Of a stretch of 64,000 nt of DNA, positions 57,167-63,993 are shown piece after piece. A program made the position numbers and the translations under genes. The stretch is from an uncultured Aquimarina sp. (lineage in GTDB: Bacteria > Bacteroidota > Bacteroidia > Flavobacteriales > Flavobacteriaceae): NCBI RefSeq assembly GCF_947500065.1, contig NZ_CANMQT010000001.1, positions 1 through 64,000 on the forward strand, in the 5' to 3' direction. How positions within the stretch are numbered: the first letter of the stretch is position 1; each line of letters begins with the position of its first letter. Under the pieces are notes generated by a model. That model did no database searches, was not told the DNA's origin, and saw only the letters and a program-made list of their open reading frames with translations.

Positions 57167-58063
57167 TTAGAAATATATTTTTTTTTTAGAAAGATATCTT
57201 CTTAAAATACCTCCTTTGATATGATTCACATCATACTCGATTACAAAAGCATTAGGGTCTATTTGATCAATAATTTTATTGACTTTGCCTATTTCAATTC
57301 GATTTATAATGGTATGAATTACTTCAAAATTTTGGATCTTTCCTTGATTTCCATATCCATGAACTCCATTAAATACAGTCATTCCTGATCCCAATTTCGA
57401 TGTAATTGCTTCTTTGACCTGATCATATTTTTTTGATACAATCATCACTCCAATAAAATTTTCAAATCCTTCTATAGTGAGGTCTGTTATTTTTGCGGTT
57501 ACCAAAAACGCTAGGATAGAATACATGGCGGTTTCCTTTGAAACAATGATTGCTGTAATCGCAAAGAGTATAAAATTAAAGAGTAAGGTTACTTTTCCAA
57601 TACTTACACCAAAATGCCTGTTAAGATATATCCCTAAAATCTCGGATCCATCTAAAACAGCACCATTTTTTATGGTAATACCTATTCCTAAGCCTAGTAA
57701 AAGTCCTCCGAAAATTGAAGTCAATAATTTATCACTAGTGAACACACCAAAATTTTCAAAATGAATAAAAATCGCAAAACTAATAATACTGACTAATGAC
57801 TTGAAAACCATATATCTGGAAATAGTGAAATATGCCAATATCAGAAACGGAATACTAAGAACTATCAATACTATTGATATATTAATAGCAAACAGGCTGT
57901 TTAATAAAATCGCAATACCTGTGACACCTCCATCTAAAAAACCATTAGGTAGAAGAAAAGCTTTCAAGCCGATACTCGCTAATAATACTCCCAAAGCAAT
58001 TTGCACGTACTCATAAGCACCTCTTATTATTTGATTCTTATGTATTGAAGTATTTTTGGTCAT
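57167..58063 (-). CDS. YitT-family membrane protein (DUF161/DUF2179)
   Basis: 298 aa from ATG 58063 (MTKNTSIHKNQIIRGAYEY); the longer track start would overlap the upstream gene. Five or six TM helices with the conserved ALGVLLASIGLKAFLLPNGFLDGGVTGIA-type opening, then a cytoplasmic DUF2179 domain (SKLGSGMTVFNGVHGYGN). Typical YitT layout and length. Transport substrate unknown. It follows the small CutA-like gene with a 13-nt gap. Confidence 0.85.
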   Translation of the reverse strand: MTKNTSIHKNQIIRGAYEYVQIALGVLLASIGLKAFLLPNGFLDGGVTGIAILLNSLFAINISIVLIVLSIPFLILAYFTISRYMVFKSLVSIISFAIFIHFENFGVFTSDKLLTSIFGGLLLGLGIGITIKNGAVLDGSEILGIYLNRHFGVSIGKVTLLFNFILFAITAIIVSKETAMYSILAFLVTAKITDLTIEGFENFIGVMIVSKKYDQVKEAITSKLGSGMTVFNGVHGYGNQGKIQNFEVIHTIINRIEIGKVNKIIDQIDPNAFVIEYDVNHIKGGILRRYLSKKKIYF

Positions 58064-58076
58064 ATAGATTTTTTGT

Positions 58077-58394
58077 TTAGAATACAGTGATGTAATCTGC
58101 AATAGTTTCTGACTGTTGCGGATCCATATGTACGATTGGAATTGAATATAAAACAGGCATATTAGATCCGAACATTTTCCTAAGACGATCGTTTAGATTA
58201 TTAAACTGTAAGGATTTAACAATACCAGAAATTAACGTTCTATTTAACTTACTTGTTTTGCTTTTTGCGTCTATTCTAGCCTGCACACAATTTTCGATAA
58301 TTGTGACTGTCAAAAGATACTTACCCCTTAGTAAAAATTCTATAATTTCATCAGTTTGTGATTTACTTTTGGGAATGATGAATATCTTTACCAT
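58077..58394 (-). CDS. small protein with possible CutA/PII-like fold
   Basis: 105 aa: MVKIFIIPKSKSQTDEIIEF opening, beta-alpha-beta then VTIIENCVQARIDAKSKTSK, and a C-terminal IPIVHMDPQQSETIADYI. The order of strands and the isolated LLRGKYLLTVTIIEN segment recall CutA1- or PII-like ferredoxin folds, but no diagnostic motif is present. It is translated just before the YitT gene (13 nt), so it may regulate that transporter as PII-like proteins do. Confidence 0.45.
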   Translation of the reverse strand: MVKIFIIPKSKSQTDEIIEFLLRGKYLLTVTIIENCVQARIDAKSKTSKLNRTLISGIVKSLQFNNLNDRLRKMFGSNMPVLYSIPIVHMDPQQSETIADYITVF

Positions 58395-58405
58395 AATTCT
58401 TTGAT

Positions 58406-59242
58406 TTAAGATTTATAATAAGGTTTCTCAGAATTTTGTGCCCTCAAAATCGAGGATAGTTCTTCTATTGGTATTTCAAGAAAATAGTTTCCTGAATAGG
58501 TAGGACATACTGTACAGTCATCAAAGTAGAATTTAATATGATCTGAATCGACAACAAAATTATTCTTGAAAACTTCAAAGGTATTTTTAGTAAATTCCCA
58601 GCAATCATTGAAAGAGTCTTGTCCTACAATACGCGCTTGTAATTCTTGATTTAGCTTAAATAATAAGAACTTCTCACTATTATTTTCAAACAAATCATTA
58701 TACGTAACAAACGTTCCTGTTTTTACATTATAATTTAAGCCCTTGAACATAAAAGAATTATGTCGATCATCATCATAATAATTTGTTTTGTATAATAGAA
58801 CACTTAAGAAGTGACTATTTTTAGTATACACTTTATAATCCAGATTTCTTCTCTTCCTTTCGGCATCTTTGAATAAAGGATCACAGGATAAATCATCATT
58901 ATAAAGCACTTGTAGGATTGATGTTTCTGTTTTTAAATAATTTCTCTTTATAAAGGAATTAAAATTACTGAACAAAGGATTGAATTGTTCATCTAGATGA
59001 GGATACTTATAATCAAGAATTAATGAGTTTTCTTTTTTATAAAACGTTTTAGTGCTAACAAAATCATTAAGCGGAGCTTCTTGCTTTTTTACTAACCAAT
59101 AGTCTGATTTCTCTTTAGACAAATTATGAGATATTAAAACTGTTTTAGCATCTTCTTCAATCAATTTATGATTAGAATCATTTGATATAGTGTTACAAGA
59201 GAGAAGTATTGTGGCAAGAGAAATACAAATTAGATTTTTCAT
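58406..59242 (-). CDS. lipoprotein with RsiV-like (DUF3298) domain
   Basis: 278 aa with lipobox (TILLSCNT). The C-terminal half has TFVTYNDLFENNSEKFLLFK then IKFYFDDCTVCPTYSGNYFLEIPIEEL, matching the DUF3298/RsiV lysozyme-binding-like fold. Four cysteines lie in the second half (SCDP, DCWE, DCTVC). Its promoter carries the same 35-bp element as the sbtA-region promoters, suggesting LysR control. It ends 12 nt before the small CutA-like gene. Confidence 0.65.
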   Translation of the reverse strand: MKNLICISLATILLSCNTISNDSNHKLIEEDAKTVLISHNLSKEKSDYWLVKKQEAPLNDFVSTKTFYKKENSLILDYKYPHLDEQFNPLFSNFNSFIKRNYLKTETSILQVLYNDDLSCDPLFKDAERKRRNLDYKVYTKNSHFLSVLLYKTNYYDDDRHNSFMFKGLNYNVKTGTFVTYNDLFENNSEKFLLFKLNQELQARIVGQDSFNDCWEFTKNTFEVFKNNFVVDSDHIKFYFDDCTVCPTYSGNYFLEIPIEELSSILRAQNSEKPYYKS

Positions 59243-59277: not shown

Positions 59278-59331
59278 CAAATCTCCATAAATAGTTTCAT
59301 ATATTTTTATTTATATTTATAATCATTTGCA
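59278..59331 (-). promoter_or_regulatory. 35-bp LysR-region element C1 and -7 box
   Basis: Read on the minus strand the element (59331-59297) contains ATAAATATAAATAAAAATAT, then 13 nt, then GAGATTTG (59285-59278). It is identical to element C4 except for one base. The rest of the 290-bp gap to the LysR gene has no gene. Confidence 0.65.
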
Positions 59332-59533
59332 TAAAATAATTTTATGTAAATGATTATAATAAAACGATGCAAATAAACAAATACTGAGATTGAGTAATTT
59401 CGAGAATATGATCTTCTAAAAAACACTTTGCATAGTTCGTTATGGGTTTGTAAAATAATCCATAACCTAAAGAATAAAGGTTTAATCAAAGTATTGTGCA
59501 GAAAATAAATTTATTGAAAGTAGTTATATAAAT

Positions 59534-60448
59534 TTATAGGCTCTCGAATCTTTTTTCGATAATTGTACTCTTTTCCTTTTTTAAATATTCAAGAAAAGCT
59601 GTGGCTACCAGAGAGAATTTTTTGTTCTTAAGCCAGATCATATGCCAGTTTGATTTGATAGGAAAGCCTTCTACAGGAATAATCTGTAAGCGCCCCATAT
59701 TAAGTTCATTACGTATTCCAATAAGTGGCATAATAGAATAACCAAGTCCTGCAACTACGGCTTGTTTTACAGCTTCATTAGAGGTAAGTTCCATTTTTTT
59801 ACTTACAGGAAGATTATTCTTTTCAATATACCTTTCCATAGTATACCTAGTTCCTGAACCTTGTTCTCGATAGATTAAAGGAAGTGTTGTAAAAATAGAT
59901 TTATCATAAACCTTCTTTGTGAAGCTTTCATCATTATTTCCAACCAAATAAAGCTGATTCTCCATTAATTCAATTTTTTCAATTTGTAATTTATCAGGAA
60001 GTACTGATACTAATGAAAAATCTACTGTGTTTTCTTCTAAGCTATTAACTACCTGTGCCTTATTGGTCACATCAAGAATTAATTCAACGCCCTTATGCTG
60101 TTTTATAAAATCAGATAAGAAATAAGGCATGATATATTTACCTGTAGATACAACTGAAATTTTTAACACACCAGATAACTGTCCTTGATAGGCTAAGGTT
60201 TTATAATTTATTTCCTTTACTTCTTCCAATATCTTCTCAGCTGCATTGGCTATTTCTTTTCCAAAATCCGTTACATATAACTTTCTTCCAATTACTTCAG
60301 TTAAAGGGATCGGAAATTGATCTTGAAAATTTCTTAACTGAATCGAAACGGCTGGTTGCGTTAAATGCAAATCTTCGGAAGCTTTCGTAACGCTCTTTTT
60401 CTCAACTATTTTAGAAAAAATCTGTAATTGATGAAGTGTATAATGCAT
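59534..60448 (-). CDS. LysR-family regulator, likely of bicarbonate uptake
   Basis: 304 aa. N-terminal winged helix (MHYTLHQLQIFSKIVEKKSV, LTQPAVSIQLRNFQDQFPIPL) and effector domain with YREQGSGTRYTME, typical of the CbbR/CcmR/YeiE branch. It is divergent from the sbtA operon with element C2 only 13 nt from its ATG, so autoregulation and control of the four C elements are likely. The ligand of related regulators is a carbon metabolite such as 2-phosphoglycolate or 2-oxoglutarate; here it is unknown. Confidence 0.87.
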   Translation of the reverse strand: MHYTLHQLQIFSKIVEKKSVTKASEDLHLTQPAVSIQLRNFQDQFPIPLTEVIGRKLYVTDFGKEIANAAEKILEEVKEINYKTLAYQGQLSGVLKISVVSTGKYIMPYFLSDFIKQHKGVELILDVTNKAQVVNSLEENTVDFSLVSVLPDKLQIEKIELMENQLYLVGNNDESFTKKVYDKSIFTTLPLIYREQGSGTRYTMERYIEKNNLPVSKKMELTSNEAVKQAVVAGLGYSIMPLIGIRNELNMGRLQIIPVEGFPIKSNWHMIWLKNKKFSLVATAFLEYLKKEKSTIIEKRFESL

Positions 60449-60460
60449 AAAAATAATTTA

Positions 60461-60514
60461 TATAAACGATTGTAAATATAAATAAAAACATATGAAACAA
60501 TACATACATCTTTG
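60461..60514 (+). promoter_or_regulatory. 35-bp LysR-region element C2 and -7 box
   Basis: GTAAATATAAATAAAAACAT ends the element; 13 nt later comes CATCTTTG (60507-60514). It lies between the divergent LysR gene and the sbtA operon. Confidence 0.7.
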
Positions 60515-60529
60515 CAAAAAACAAAACTA

Positions 60530-60769
60530 ATGAGAGATTTAAATCCAAAGAAAAACCAACCAGAAAAAGTTAAAGTGATTTCACTTCATCATAACAAAAA
60601 GGCAGCATCACCCACAATCCTTAATCTAATAATAATCGCCCTTCTTTTTTCGACTTTTATGGCGCTTTCTATAAAAAGCGACCATCTTTTCTTAACTGAA
60701 ATTCTACTTTCTGGAAGTATTATAGCATTACTAGGCATATCAAACTCCATCCCTAAAACTAAGAGGTAA
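60530..60769 (+). CDS. small membrane protein in the sbtA operon
   Basis: 79 aa from ATG 60530 (the track began at a TTG). A basic, soluble N-terminus (MRDLNPKKNQPEKVKV) is followed by two TM helices (LNLIIIALLFSTFMALSI and LFLTEILLSGSIIALLGIS). Unknown family. It directly precedes the transporter (52 nt) and shares its promoter, so a small accessory or regulatory subunit is plausible. Confidence 0.5.
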   Translation: MRDLNPKKNQPEKVKVISLHHNKKAASPTILNLIIIALLFSTFMALSIKSDHLFLTEILLSGSIIALLGISNSIPKTKR

Positions 60770-60821
60770 ACACTTAATATTTTTCAAATAAATTCTATTA
60801 TAAAATCATAGTAACAACTAT

Positions 60822-61787
60822 ATGGATTTACATTTACTTATAGACAACCTGACCAACCCTGCATTACTTTTTTTCTTCTTAGGAGTTATTGCAGTTCAGC
60901 TTAAAAGCGATCTTAATATCCCTGAAAACTCTTCAAAGTTTATTTCACTTTATCTTTTACTTTCAATCGGTTTTAAGGGTGGTCAAGAGCTTTCACATAG
61001 TACATTTAATGCAGAAATACTATGGTCATTACTTTTTGGAATATTTCTGGCCATCTTCATTCCTGTGTATACGTATTTTATATTGCGCAGAAAATTTAGT
61101 CTCGAAAATGCAGGAGCTATCGCAGCATCTTATGGTTCTGTAAGTGCTGTAACATTTGTAACAACCATATCTTTTTTAGAAATAGAAAACATTGCCTTTA
61201 GCGGTCATATGGTAGCAGTAATGGCATTAATGGAGGCACCGTCCATAATGGTGGGATTACTTCTGGTCACAATTTTCAAAAAAAATAAGAACGAAGATAA
61301 AATTCCTATAAAAACTGTAGTACATCACGCACTAACTAATGGCAGTGTTCTGCTTATAATAGGTAGTTTGATTGTAGGTTTATTTGCAAGTGAGGCACAA
61401 GCCGAAGGAATCAAACCTTTTACTACAGATATATTTAAAGGATTCCTAGCTGTATTCCTTTTGGATATGGGAATCACTAGTGGACGTAAGCTTTCTGGTT
61501 TCATTAAAAAAGGATGGTTTGCTTTTCTATTTGCCATCATCATACCTGTTATAAACGGTTGTATTGTTGCGGTAGTAAGTGGTCTTTTTAGTTCTGGAGA
61601 GGGCAATAGATTGTTATTTGCCATACTCGCTGCTAGTGCATCCTATATCGCAGTGCCTGCAGCGATGAAACTAGCACTTCCAAAAGCGAACCCTAGTCTT
61701 TATATTCCGATGGCTCTGGCAATCACTTTTCCCTTTAATATAACATTAGGAATGCCTTTATATCTGTGCATCATACAGGTTACATAA
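60822..61787 (+). CDS. sbtA: SbtA-type sodium-dependent bicarbonate transporter
   Basis: 321 aa with ten TM helices in two inverted halves. Signatures are LTNPALLFFFLGVIAVQLKSD, SLYLLLSIGFKGGQEL and AASYGSVSAVTFVTTISFLE (first half), and FLLDMGITSGRK plus AASASYIAVPAAMKLALPKA (second half), as in SbtA/DUF897. It imports bicarbonate with sodium. In a heterotroph this would feed anaplerotic carboxylation or CO2-limited growth. No SbtB (PII-like) partner is recognisable directly beside it. Confidence 0.88.
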   Translation: MDLHLLIDNLTNPALLFFFLGVIAVQLKSDLNIPENSSKFISLYLLLSIGFKGGQELSHSTFNAEILWSLLFGIFLAIFIPVYTYFILRRKFSLENAGAIAASYGSVSAVTFVTTISFLEIENIAFSGHMVAVMALMEAPSIMVGLLLVTIFKKNKNEDKIPIKTVVHHALTNGSVLLIIGSLIVGLFASEAQAEGIKPFTTDIFKGFLAVFLLDMGITSGRKLSGFIKKGWFAFLFAIIIPVINGCIVAVVSGLFSSGEGNRLLFAILAASASYIAVPAAMKLALPKANPSLYIPMALAITFPFNITLGMPLYLCIIQVT

Positions 61788-61796
61788 TAATAATTT

Positions 61797-61851
61797 ATGA
61801 TTACAATAAAATATATAAATAAAAATATATAACATATTAATTCAACCTTTG
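61797..61851 (+). promoter_or_regulatory. 35-bp LysR-region element C3 and -7 box
   Basis: ATATATAAATAAAAATATAT ends at 61830; 13 nt later lies AACCTTTG (61844-61851). It drives the 103-aa gene at 61883. Confidence 0.62.
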
Positions 61852-61882
61852 TACTATAAATCAAAACAATTTCAATAAAATT

Positions 61883-62194
61883 ATGGAAGCGATAGAAACA
61901 GCAACAATGAAAGTAAAAACAGATCAAAAAATAAATTTGATTGATGGACACTTTACAGCATCAGAAGCAGCAGACATTATTAACGCTGTACTTAATGTAA
62001 AAATCAACTTTCATAGATTGCATCGATTATCAATTACTGAAGGAAATACTAGTGATGAGTGCGAATATGATAGTGGAAGAATAGATGAATTACTGCAAGA
62101 GCAGGTTACAGCGAAAGAGTTTTTTACTCAGGCAAGATTAGACGGGAAAAAACTTAAAATGAGTAGTGTAATCAATATTTCTGTCGAAGATTAG
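61883..62194 (+). CDS. small cytoplasmic protein linked to sbtA (103 aa)
   Basis: 103 aa, mostly helical, with a helix-turn-helix-like middle (GHFTASEAADIINAVLNVKINFHRLHRLS). It has no SbtB/PII signature. Its own promoter contains element C3, so it is co-regulated with the transporter. A strong terminator (62261-62297) follows. Function unknown; a regulator or adaptor is conceivable. Confidence 0.5.
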   Translation: MEAIETATMKVKTDQKINLIDGHFTASEAADIINAVLNVKINFHRLHRLSITEGNTSDECEYDSGRIDELLQEQVTAKEFFTQARLDGKKLKMSSVINISVED

Positions 62195-62260
62195 GTATTA
62201 GAATTAGTCAAATCATTGAATATCCAACATTTTTTCAATCCAGTTATAAAATTGATTGAT

Positions 62261-62297
62261 AAAAAGAGAGTCTCTTACTATAAGAGACTCTCTTTTT
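62261..62297 (+). terminator. 17-bp perfect stem terminator
   Basis: AAAAAGAGAGTCTCTTA / TAAGAGACTCTCTTTTT around CTA, ending in a T run. The remaining gap to 62590 shows nothing further. Confidence 0.9.
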
Positions 62298-62594
62298 AGT
62301 AACTATGGTAGTTATTAAAATCTTAAAGGCGATACCAAATTCAAGAGAATAAATTTATGGTAACATGACCTCTACTAATATTAACTCCTTATAAATATTA
62401 TATTTGAAAACACCCTTCCTTCACTAGAAAAATGAGGTCAAAAAATAAATTCTTACGATACTTGGCATATTAAGGCTGTATCGTCATTCTCCTAACTTCC
62501 TCCGAGGTTTTCCTTGTCACAATTTTAAATACTAATCGCAGAGTTTTCTACAAAAAGCATCCAATTCCCATTACTTAATCATAAATAATTTTTA

Positions 62595-62648
62595 TGCAAA
62601 TCATTATAAATATAAATAAAAATATATGAGCTAAATTTTCTAACTTAG
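62595..62648 (+). promoter_or_regulatory. 35-bp LysR-region element C4 and -7 box
   Basis: The element (62595-62629) matches C1 in 34 of 35 positions. 13 nt beyond the shared AAAAATATAT comes TAACTTAG (62641-62648), a near match to TAnnTTTG. It precedes the gene at 62695. Confidence 0.68.
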
Positions 62649-62694: not shown

Positions 62695-63138
62695 ATGAAA
62701 AAGACATATAACATATGGATACTTTCTGTATTTAGTATAACACTTATTTATGGTGGTATATCGGATAATAAGTTTACAGTAAACTCTAATTCATGCAAAG
62801 AAATATTATTTTGTTTAGATGGATCTAATCACTATTTAAACTTTGAGTTTACAAATTATTTTAGTGATAAAAATAATTTTCATTTTGTTAGTACGGAGTT
62901 AGAACATTTTGCGCCCGTTTCTTTAGTGACTCTTGAACATAAGGTAAAAAAAGAATTAGAAAAGATCAACCAACGAGAAGATCACATAAACTTATTACTA
63001 GCCAGAAAACGCTCACAATATCAATTATATAAAGTAAATATATTCGGTAGATTAACAAATCCTGTAAACGTAGCGATAAACTATCATAAGTCACTACCCC
63101 CAAGAATGGAAGGATTGGGCATAAGATTACGGTTTTGA
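62695..63138 (+). CDS. secreted hypothetical protein (147 aa)
   Basis: 147 aa with a weak signal peptide (ILSVFSITLIYGG). The mature part begins with two Cys (NSCKEILFCLDG) and contains a charged helix (EHKVKKELEKINQREDHINLLLARKR). It ends in basic residues (GLGIRLRF). No family recognised. Controlled through element C4; the next gene starts 75 nt downstream and is probably co-transcribed. Confidence 0.5.
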   Translation: MKKTYNIWILSVFSITLIYGGISDNKFTVNSNSCKEILFCLDGSNHYLNFEFTNYFSDKNNFHFVSTELEHFAPVSLVTLEHKVKKELEKINQREDHINLLLARKRSQYQLYKVNIFGRLTNPVNVAINYHKSLPPRMEGLGIRLRF

Positions 63139-63213: not shown

Positions 63214-63993
63214 ATGAAAACTAAATTTTTCCTTTTAATTGGGGTATTGGGATTATGCTCTAATTGTGCAGTCATACGTCCTGGTGAAGCTGGTGTGAAA
63301 CAGACATTAGGTAAATTTTCGGATAAGGTATCCACTCAAGGCACCATAGTTTACAATCCATTGGTTAGTAAAATCATCAAAGAATCAACACAAACAAATA
63401 ATATAAAACTTATTCTGAGTTTGCCCAGTAAAGAAGGGCTTAGTGTAAATTCTGAGATCTCTATTTTATATCGTTTAGAGCAAAATAAAATACCCTCGGT
63501 ATTAGAAAATTTAGGTCAGGGATATGAATCAATAATTACTAGCGTATTCCGGTCAGCTTCTTCTGATGTATGTGCTCAATTTTTCGCTAAGGATATGCAT
63601 TCTGGTATGCGAGCGAAAATAGAAGATGAAATCAAAATCAAAATGGAAGAAAATCTCAGAAAACAAGCTGATGGAATCGAGCTTATTGCCGTTTTAATGA
63701 AACGTATACAATTACCAAATGGGCTAGCAAATTCTATAGAACGAAAATTGCAAGCTGAACAAGATGCGATGAGAATGGAGTTTGTGATACAGCAAGCAAA
63801 ATTAGAAGCAGAAAGAAAAGTTATAAACGCTGAAGGTGAACGAGATGCTCAGAAAATATTGTCTGAAGGGTTGACGCAAGAAATCATCAAAATACGAAGC
63901 ATAGAAGCCTTTAATAAACTATCTGAGTCTCCTAATAGTAAAATAATCATTACAGATGGAAAAACACCACTATTGATCGATTCAGATAATTAA
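63214..63993 (+). CDS. SPFH/prohibitin-like lipoprotein
   Basis: 259 aa. Lipobox-like LGLCSNC near residue 18, then an SPFH (band 7) domain (VIRPGEAGVKQTLGKFSDKV... KIIKESTQTNNIKLILSLPSK) and a coiled-coil ending KLQAEQDAMRMEFVIQQAKLEAERKVINAEGERDAQKI, as in prohibitins. Being lipid-anchored instead of TM-anchored is a common Bacteroidota variant. It probably forms large membrane-associated rings that organise proteases or transporters. The gene is complete, ending 7 nt before the window edge. Confidence 0.82.
   Translation: MKTKFFLLIGVLGLCSNCAVIRPGEAGVKQTLGKFSDKVSTQGTIVYNPLVSKIIKESTQTNNIKLILSLPSKEGLSVNSEISILYRLEQNKIPSVLENLGQGYESIITSVFRSASSDVCAQFFAKDMHSGMRAKIEDEIKIKMEENLRKQADGIELIAVLMKRIQLPNGLANSIERKLQAEQDAMRMEFVIQQAKLEAERKVINAEGERDAQKILSEGLTQEIIKIRSIEAFNKLSESPNSKIIITDGKTPLLIDSDN

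Follow-up and report, generated by a model that had tools for sequence, protein, structure and literature searches.

Four near-identical elements at sbtA and neighboring genes of an Aquimarina genome as putative operator-promoters of a LysR-type regulator

The analyzed window, a stretch of 64,000 nt from contig NZ_CANMQT010000001.1 of an uncultured Aquimarina sp., ends with the genes p263–yitT–orf105–DUF3298 and lysR on the minus strand, followed by orf79–sbtA, orf103, and orf147–SPFH, all on the plus strand. Every transcription unit here has one copy of an approximately 59-nt element ahead of it, and these four copies, C1–C4, are the subject of the present analysis. C1 (59277..59335, minus strand) is a putative LysR site and promoter of DUF3298–orf105–yitT–p263. 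C2 (60457..60515, plus strand), a putative operator-promoter in the lysR/orf79–sbtA intergenic region, begins 9 nt from the lysR start codon. C3 (61794..61852, plus strand) is a putative promoter of orf103, and C4 (62591..62649, plus strand), with a deviant −7 box, of orf147–SPFH. A position-weight matrix (PWM) built from 55 sites scores C1 at 54.2, C2 at 47.6, C3 at 34.5, and C4 at 54.3, while the maximum in shuffled windows is −9.5.

The four copies share one gapless register with identical spacing. The gapless alignment spans 69 nt (C1, 59346–59278, minus strand; C2, 60446–60514; C3, 61783–61851; C4, 62580–62648), which is longer than given in an earlier sequence-only reading of this DNA. 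Two other claims of that reading, a match of C1 and C4 at 34 of 35 positions and an exact 13-nt spacer in all four copies, hold on direct reading of the sequence: C1 (59331–59297, minus strand) is TGCAAATGATTATAAATATAAATAAAAATATATGA and C4 (62595–62629) is TGCAAATCATTATAAATATAAATAAAAATATATGA, and exactly 13 nt separate AAAAA[TC]ATAT from the 8-nt box in each of C1, C2, C3, and C4. The boxes themselves (GAGATTTG in C1, CATCTTTG in C2, AACCTTTG in C3, and TAACTTAG in C4) differ from the canonical TAnnTTTG. At C1, there is a second, inverted copy of the recognition dyad (59317..59359; inverted repeat I10, 95%), so that the two form a 2 × 21-nt near-perfect palindrome; the outward copy has neither the downstream AT block nor the −7 box.

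No matches to the element were found in 100 dinucleotide-shuffled versions of the window. In the whole 6.57-Mb genome, three patterns (the core with at most two mismatches, a degenerate 36-mer with at most three, and, less strictly, a 57-mer extending over the −7 region with at most three) each match only at the places of C1–C4, and a reversed control pattern gives no matches across the same genome.

The product of lysR (59534..60448, minus strand; 304 aa), the proposed binder of C1–C4, has the domain structure of LysR-type transcriptional regulators (LTTRs), with an N-terminal HTH_1 domain (PF00126, 8.9e-14) and a C-terminal LysR substrate-binding domain (PF03466, 1.2e-38). The sbtA gene (60822..61787, plus strand) encodes a member of the Na+-dependent bicarbonate transporter family: the Sbt_1 domain (PF05982, 9.3e-116, residues 13–319) covers its full length, the Synechocystis SbtA structure 7cye is matched at 1.2e-24, and its nearest relatives are from Aquimarina. 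Between C2 and sbtA, orf79 (60530..60769, plus strand) encodes a small membrane-type protein whose profile matches that of small dab-operon proteins in the same regulon (hhalign, probability 96, E 4.8e-9); hence, the SbtA and Dab operons appear to have a small membrane-type protein in common. Downstream, a perfect 18-bp hairpin with 100% complementarity and a 3-nt loop (62260..62298; inverted repeat I16) lies between orf103 and C4. It is likely a terminator dividing the C3 and C4 units, and its position points to C4 as a separate promoter.

For comparison, we retrieved 80 loci encoding close SbtA relatives. Loci L005–L084 were picked by SbtA and are thus biased, while those from L089 onward come mostly from whole-genome pattern scans. 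In most of the 80 loci, a LysR orthologue is encoded divergently beside sbtA or orf103, and in dozens of genera a constant 9 nt separates the element from the start codon of this orthologue. The family consensus is TTATGTATTTCATAATAAATATAAATAAAAATATATGA, 13 nt, and nAnCTTTGCA. Equivalents of C3 are seen between sbtA and orf103 in many loci (L005–L022, L046), and equivalents of C1 and C4 in sister Aquimarina loci. In several Aquimarina, lysR is located elsewhere and the elements persist at sbtA, orf103, DUF3298, and SPFH. One of the loci (L005:5209-5409) has a 69-aa lysR remnant beside sbtA, with four elements persisting; an 80% identical LysR, having an element of its own, is encoded on another contig of very probably the same genome (L134, G214).

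The flavobacterial sigma-A box TAnnTTTG is located at −12 to −5 (PMC9723704). On this scale, the dyad TTATG-N5-CATAA of the elements spans about −61 to −47, and the AT-rich block TAAATATAAATAAAAATATAT about −43 to −26. The dyad includes the T-N11-A pattern of LTTR operator-promoters and is found next to the start codon of the divergent lysR; its half-sites are complementary at at least three of five positions in 170 of 173 distinct elements, well above slid controls. TTTG occurs at the fixed −7 position in 147 of the 173, the exact TAnnTTTG in nine, and TTG at −33 in none; the elements do not have the combination of TAnnTTTG and −33 TTG characteristic of Bacteroidota sigma-A promoters. The same fixed offset is obtained from a scan ignoring the −7 region. 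The absence of a −33 hexamer together with the degenerate −7 box points to an activator-dependent promoter. As judged from sequence, the layout is apparently that expected of a LysR-activated promoter, with a dyad upstream, an activation site over −33, and a weak core promoter. In contrast to the other targets, most of the C4-type SPFH promoters (window positions 62641–62648; L005–L007, L032, L063) deviate in the −7 box, which reads TTAG or TTTAT.

The best solved relatives of the LysR protein are NdhR/CcmR (5y2v, 4e-51, residues 1–290) and CmpR (5z49, 1.4e-31), with the next different solved protein at 3e-24; this assignment to the NdhR/CcmR–CmpR group is by similarity ranking among solved LysR proteins. 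With the CbbR equivalog (NCBIfam NF045990) LysR scores 179.8 bits, below the cut-off of 450, and is not assigned to it. In Synechocystis, CcmR is a repressor of sbtA, ndhF3, and its own gene and has NADP+ and 2-oxoglutarate as co-repressors, whereas the co-activators of CmpR are ribulose bisphosphate (RuBP) and 2-phosphoglycolate (PMC3401165). With a repressor as the closest solved relative, the flavobacterial LysR might likewise repress the four units, to be derepressed at low inorganic carbon (Ci). We regard this as rather improbable: low basal activity is expected of promoters with no −33 TTG and an exact −7 box in so few cases, the dyad upstream of the polymerase site is in the usual place for activation, and the close solved relatives also include an activator, CmpR.

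We then surveyed 201 Flavobacteriaceae genomes, almost all from different genera; the element pattern is present in 40, SbtA in 31, LysR in 46, and DabA in 15. The element occurs together with LysR in 39 of the 40 element-bearing genomes (Fisher p=3e-33), and LysR is present in 41 of the 42 genomes with SbtA or DabA (p=6e-36); the genomes being related, these p-values overstate independence, although the pattern is still close to one-to-one. The element is kept in all 16 genomes with LysR and without SbtA, and is absent from 154 of 155 genomes without LysR. The only genome with SbtA and without LysR (L143) has no element, and its sbtA belongs to an IDH–orf103-like–sbtA operon (IDH, isocitrate dehydrogenase). 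Another regulator, or an alternative sigma factor, could in principle serve the element and merely co-occur with LysR. Indeed, LysR binding is deduced from sequence, the −7 boxes are variable, and the C4-type TTAG/TTAT boxes could suit another sigma factor; however, the co-occurrence, including its loss in L143, the constant distance of 9 nt between the element and the start of lysR across dozens of genera, and the LTTR-like dyad with its downstream block make this explanation unlikely.

For 161 of the 173 distinct elements, the gene that follows belongs to one small recurring set; eight of the other 12 are located beside lysR itself, and four have no clear target. Among the genomes with no SbtA, 10 have DabB-like and DabA-like genes after the LysR–element–orf103 block. 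Four more dabBA operons far from lysR have the element upstream, as does another beside lysR in L142; in all 15 DabA genomes the element is upstream of the dabBA operon. Pfam domains (PF00361, PF10070) confirmed one DabB/DabA pair, and a PF10070 search confirmed every DabA gene. Elements not linked to lysR precede IDH in 15 loci (PF00180 and PF18324 in those tested), DUF3298 in 12, and orf103 in 25, and in two loci (L076, L079) the element is directly ahead of yitT. SPFH operons are preceded by elements in many Aquimarina and in L049; the loci with an element upstream of orf147/SPFH are L005–L007, L032, L049, L063, L064, L118, L120, L123, L124, L126, L130, L151, and L154.

The sequence-only reading had extended the regulon to the DUF3298, 103-aa, and pre-SPFH genes, and conservation in other genomes agrees with this. 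It had also proposed an operator for the divergent LysR, for which the 39/40 co-occurrence, the fixed 9-nt position, and the elements at targets far from lysR provide sequence-level support. Finally, it had noted that an element occurring before many unrelated genes would be a general promoter repeat, and this is not what is seen. True, the element is very AT-rich, ends in a sigma-A-like box, and has copies on both strands, as might a general AT-rich promoter repeat or a mobile repeat copied to unrelated genes with no specific regulator. Nevertheless, with four copies in the whole genome, its absence from nearly all LysR-free genomes, and the small recurring gene set behind it, such an origin is hardly credible. 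The anatomy, spacing, conservation, co-occurrence, and target genes are all read from sequence.

Hence, C1–C4 are very probably operator-promoters of one NdhR/CcmR–CmpR-like LysR that would autoregulate its own gene and activate a Ci-uptake regulon in heterotrophic flavobacteria. Several observations weigh against this. At the pattern stringency used, seven of the 46 LysR genomes have no element; weaker copies are present in some of them (L142, L146), but not in L145 or L147. SbtA and DabA are both missing from five LysR genomes, the four element sites in other genomes mentioned above have no obvious target, and in most species C4-type sites have a poor −7 box. In addition, counts in L005–L084 depend on the choice of loci, many of which were fetched by SbtA.

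In the proposed mechanism, the dyad TTATG-N5-CATAA would be the recognition site of LysR, and the AT-rich block, spanning the place of the missing −33 hexamer, its activation site. With the degenerate −7 box nAnCTTTG at an invariant distance, RNA polymerase would use the promoter only with LysR bound alongside. As the element abuts the lysR start codon, LysR probably regulates its own gene. In the window genome, the regulon would consist of four units, lysR/orf79–sbtA, orf103, DUF3298–orf105–yitT–p263, and orf147–SPFH; family-wide, the same system would control alternative Ci uptake systems (SbtA or DabBA) and IDH. Its role is most likely to raise the bicarbonate/CO2 supply for carboxylations under Ci scarcity. 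A metabolite of central carbon metabolism may be the signal, perhaps 2-oxoglutarate as for CcmR, and the IDH target would fit a 2-oxoglutarate/NADP+ signal. DNA binding by LysR, activation, the effector, and the response to low Ci are what we infer for this system.

Like NdhR/CcmR, the flavobacterial LysR would control sbtA and its own gene. Unlike NdhR/CcmR, it has a presumably non-autotrophic host, a promoter anatomy suggesting activation, an operator nearly invariant across the family, and a proposed regulon with orf103, DUF3298, and SPFH and, elsewhere, DabBA and IDH. CmpR, the cyanobacterial activator of the cmp bicarbonate transporter, is a close solved relative as well, but its target is an ABC transporter, and its co-activators are Calvin-cycle-related metabolites not expected in a flavobacterial host. 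In chemolithoautotrophs, LysR genes adjoin SbtA/DAB/SulP-type Ci transporters. The flavobacterial loci resemble CbbR and these LysR-linked dissolved inorganic carbon systems in that LysR adjoins Ci transporter genes, but, in contrast to CbbR systems, RubisCO genes were not noticed in the regulon loci viewed, no search having been aimed at RubisCO. MpsAB/DabAB provides Ci supply in the heterotroph Staphylococcus aureus (PMC6689103); Ci uptake would similarly serve carboxylation in a non-autotroph here, with DabA in 15 of the 201 genomes, whereas in flavobacteria SbtA and DabBA would be interchangeable targets of one LysR. A regulator of this kind for SbtA/DabBA was not found described in open-access literature. 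Searches of the open-access literature on SbtA and LysR in Bacteroidetes, or on SbtA in heterotrophs and flavobacteria, yielded nothing, which, given this scope, is weak evidence of absence; only cyanobacterial, chemolithoautotroph, or Staphylococcus work was found otherwise.

Heterotrophic bacteria also need CO2/bicarbonate for carboxylations, and little is known of how they sense a shortage and respond to it. We consider it fairly probable that non-photosynthetic marine flavobacteria have a dedicated, conserved Ci-starvation regulon in which a single LysR and its almost invariant operator control the Ci pump present in a given species (SbtA or DabBA), IDH, and new helper proteins (orf103, a CutA-like protein, and the small membrane-type protein found in both SbtA and Dab operons), possibly new regulators of Ci pumps. 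Constant and rare, the element serves as a label defining Ci-supply genes genome by genome. It indicates an exchange of SbtA and DabBA under a common regulator, ties IDH to Ci supply, marks the uncharacterized orf103 and orf79 as probable components of the uptake machinery, and yields a list of genes that non-photosynthetic flavobacteria probably turn on under CO2 shortage.

The small protein encoded by orf103 (61883..62194, plus strand) accompanies sbtA, with an orthologue in 73 of the 80 sbtA loci, and also accompanies dab loci. No Pfam or NCBIfam families above the cut-off were found for it. Its predicted model (pLDDT 74) consists of a strand, two long helices, and a strand, and has no significant match in PDB (the weak best match, 4dci, E 0.17, was not used). 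Orf103 was rejected as an SbtB/P-II partner of SbtA, with no P-II match, a different predicted fold, and no significant PDB match. In L132, L150, L123, and L058, the gene immediately behind IDH encodes a member of a family paralogous to orf103 (KIKFHNLQ type).

In the C1 operon, the first gene encodes a DUF3298 lipoprotein-like protein (58406..59242, minus strand; PF11738, 1.2e-5, above the cut-off). It is followed by orf105 (58077..58394, minus strand), a small CutA1-like protein (AlphaFold pLDDT 87) with Foldseek matches to CutA1 structures (E 1.7e-6, TM 0.7–0.8); as the best fold matches are to CutA1 and not to P-II/SbtB, orf105 was rejected as SbtB-like. The third gene, yitT (57167..58063, minus strand), encodes a YitT_membrane–DUF2179 protein (PF02588, 9e-56; PF10035, 8e-13). 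Behind C4, orf147 (62695..63138, plus strand) encodes a predicted secreted protein with a signal-like N-terminus ahead of the gene for a 259-aa SPFH/Band 7 protein (63214..63993, plus strand; PF01145, 2e-27); in several Aquimarina loci, an orf147 homologue is likewise located between the element and the SPFH gene.

IDH was rejected as a regulon member in the window genome, where this type of IDH is absent and there are only weak relatives (30–35%). A match in the same genome that resembles isocitrate/isopropylmalate dehydrogenase (G000:C2:227647-228666, L163) contains two in-frame TAA codons and could be a pseudogene or an artefact of the alignment. In three genomes, elements near M1-peptidase-type genes (L107:3047-3105, L108:3058-3116, L112:3021-3079) are directed away from any obvious same-strand gene, and a small RNA or a missed small gene is possible there. 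In one LysR genome without SbtA and DabA, SulP and carbonic anhydrase genes adjoin lysR; genes for a SulP-type transporter and a beta-type carbonic anhydrase are found beside LysR in L144 and L116, a third Ci system in that neighborhood. In two Aquimarina genomes (L119:2663-2721, L122:3404-3462), a gene of the DNA photolyase family adjacent to lysR has the element upstream.

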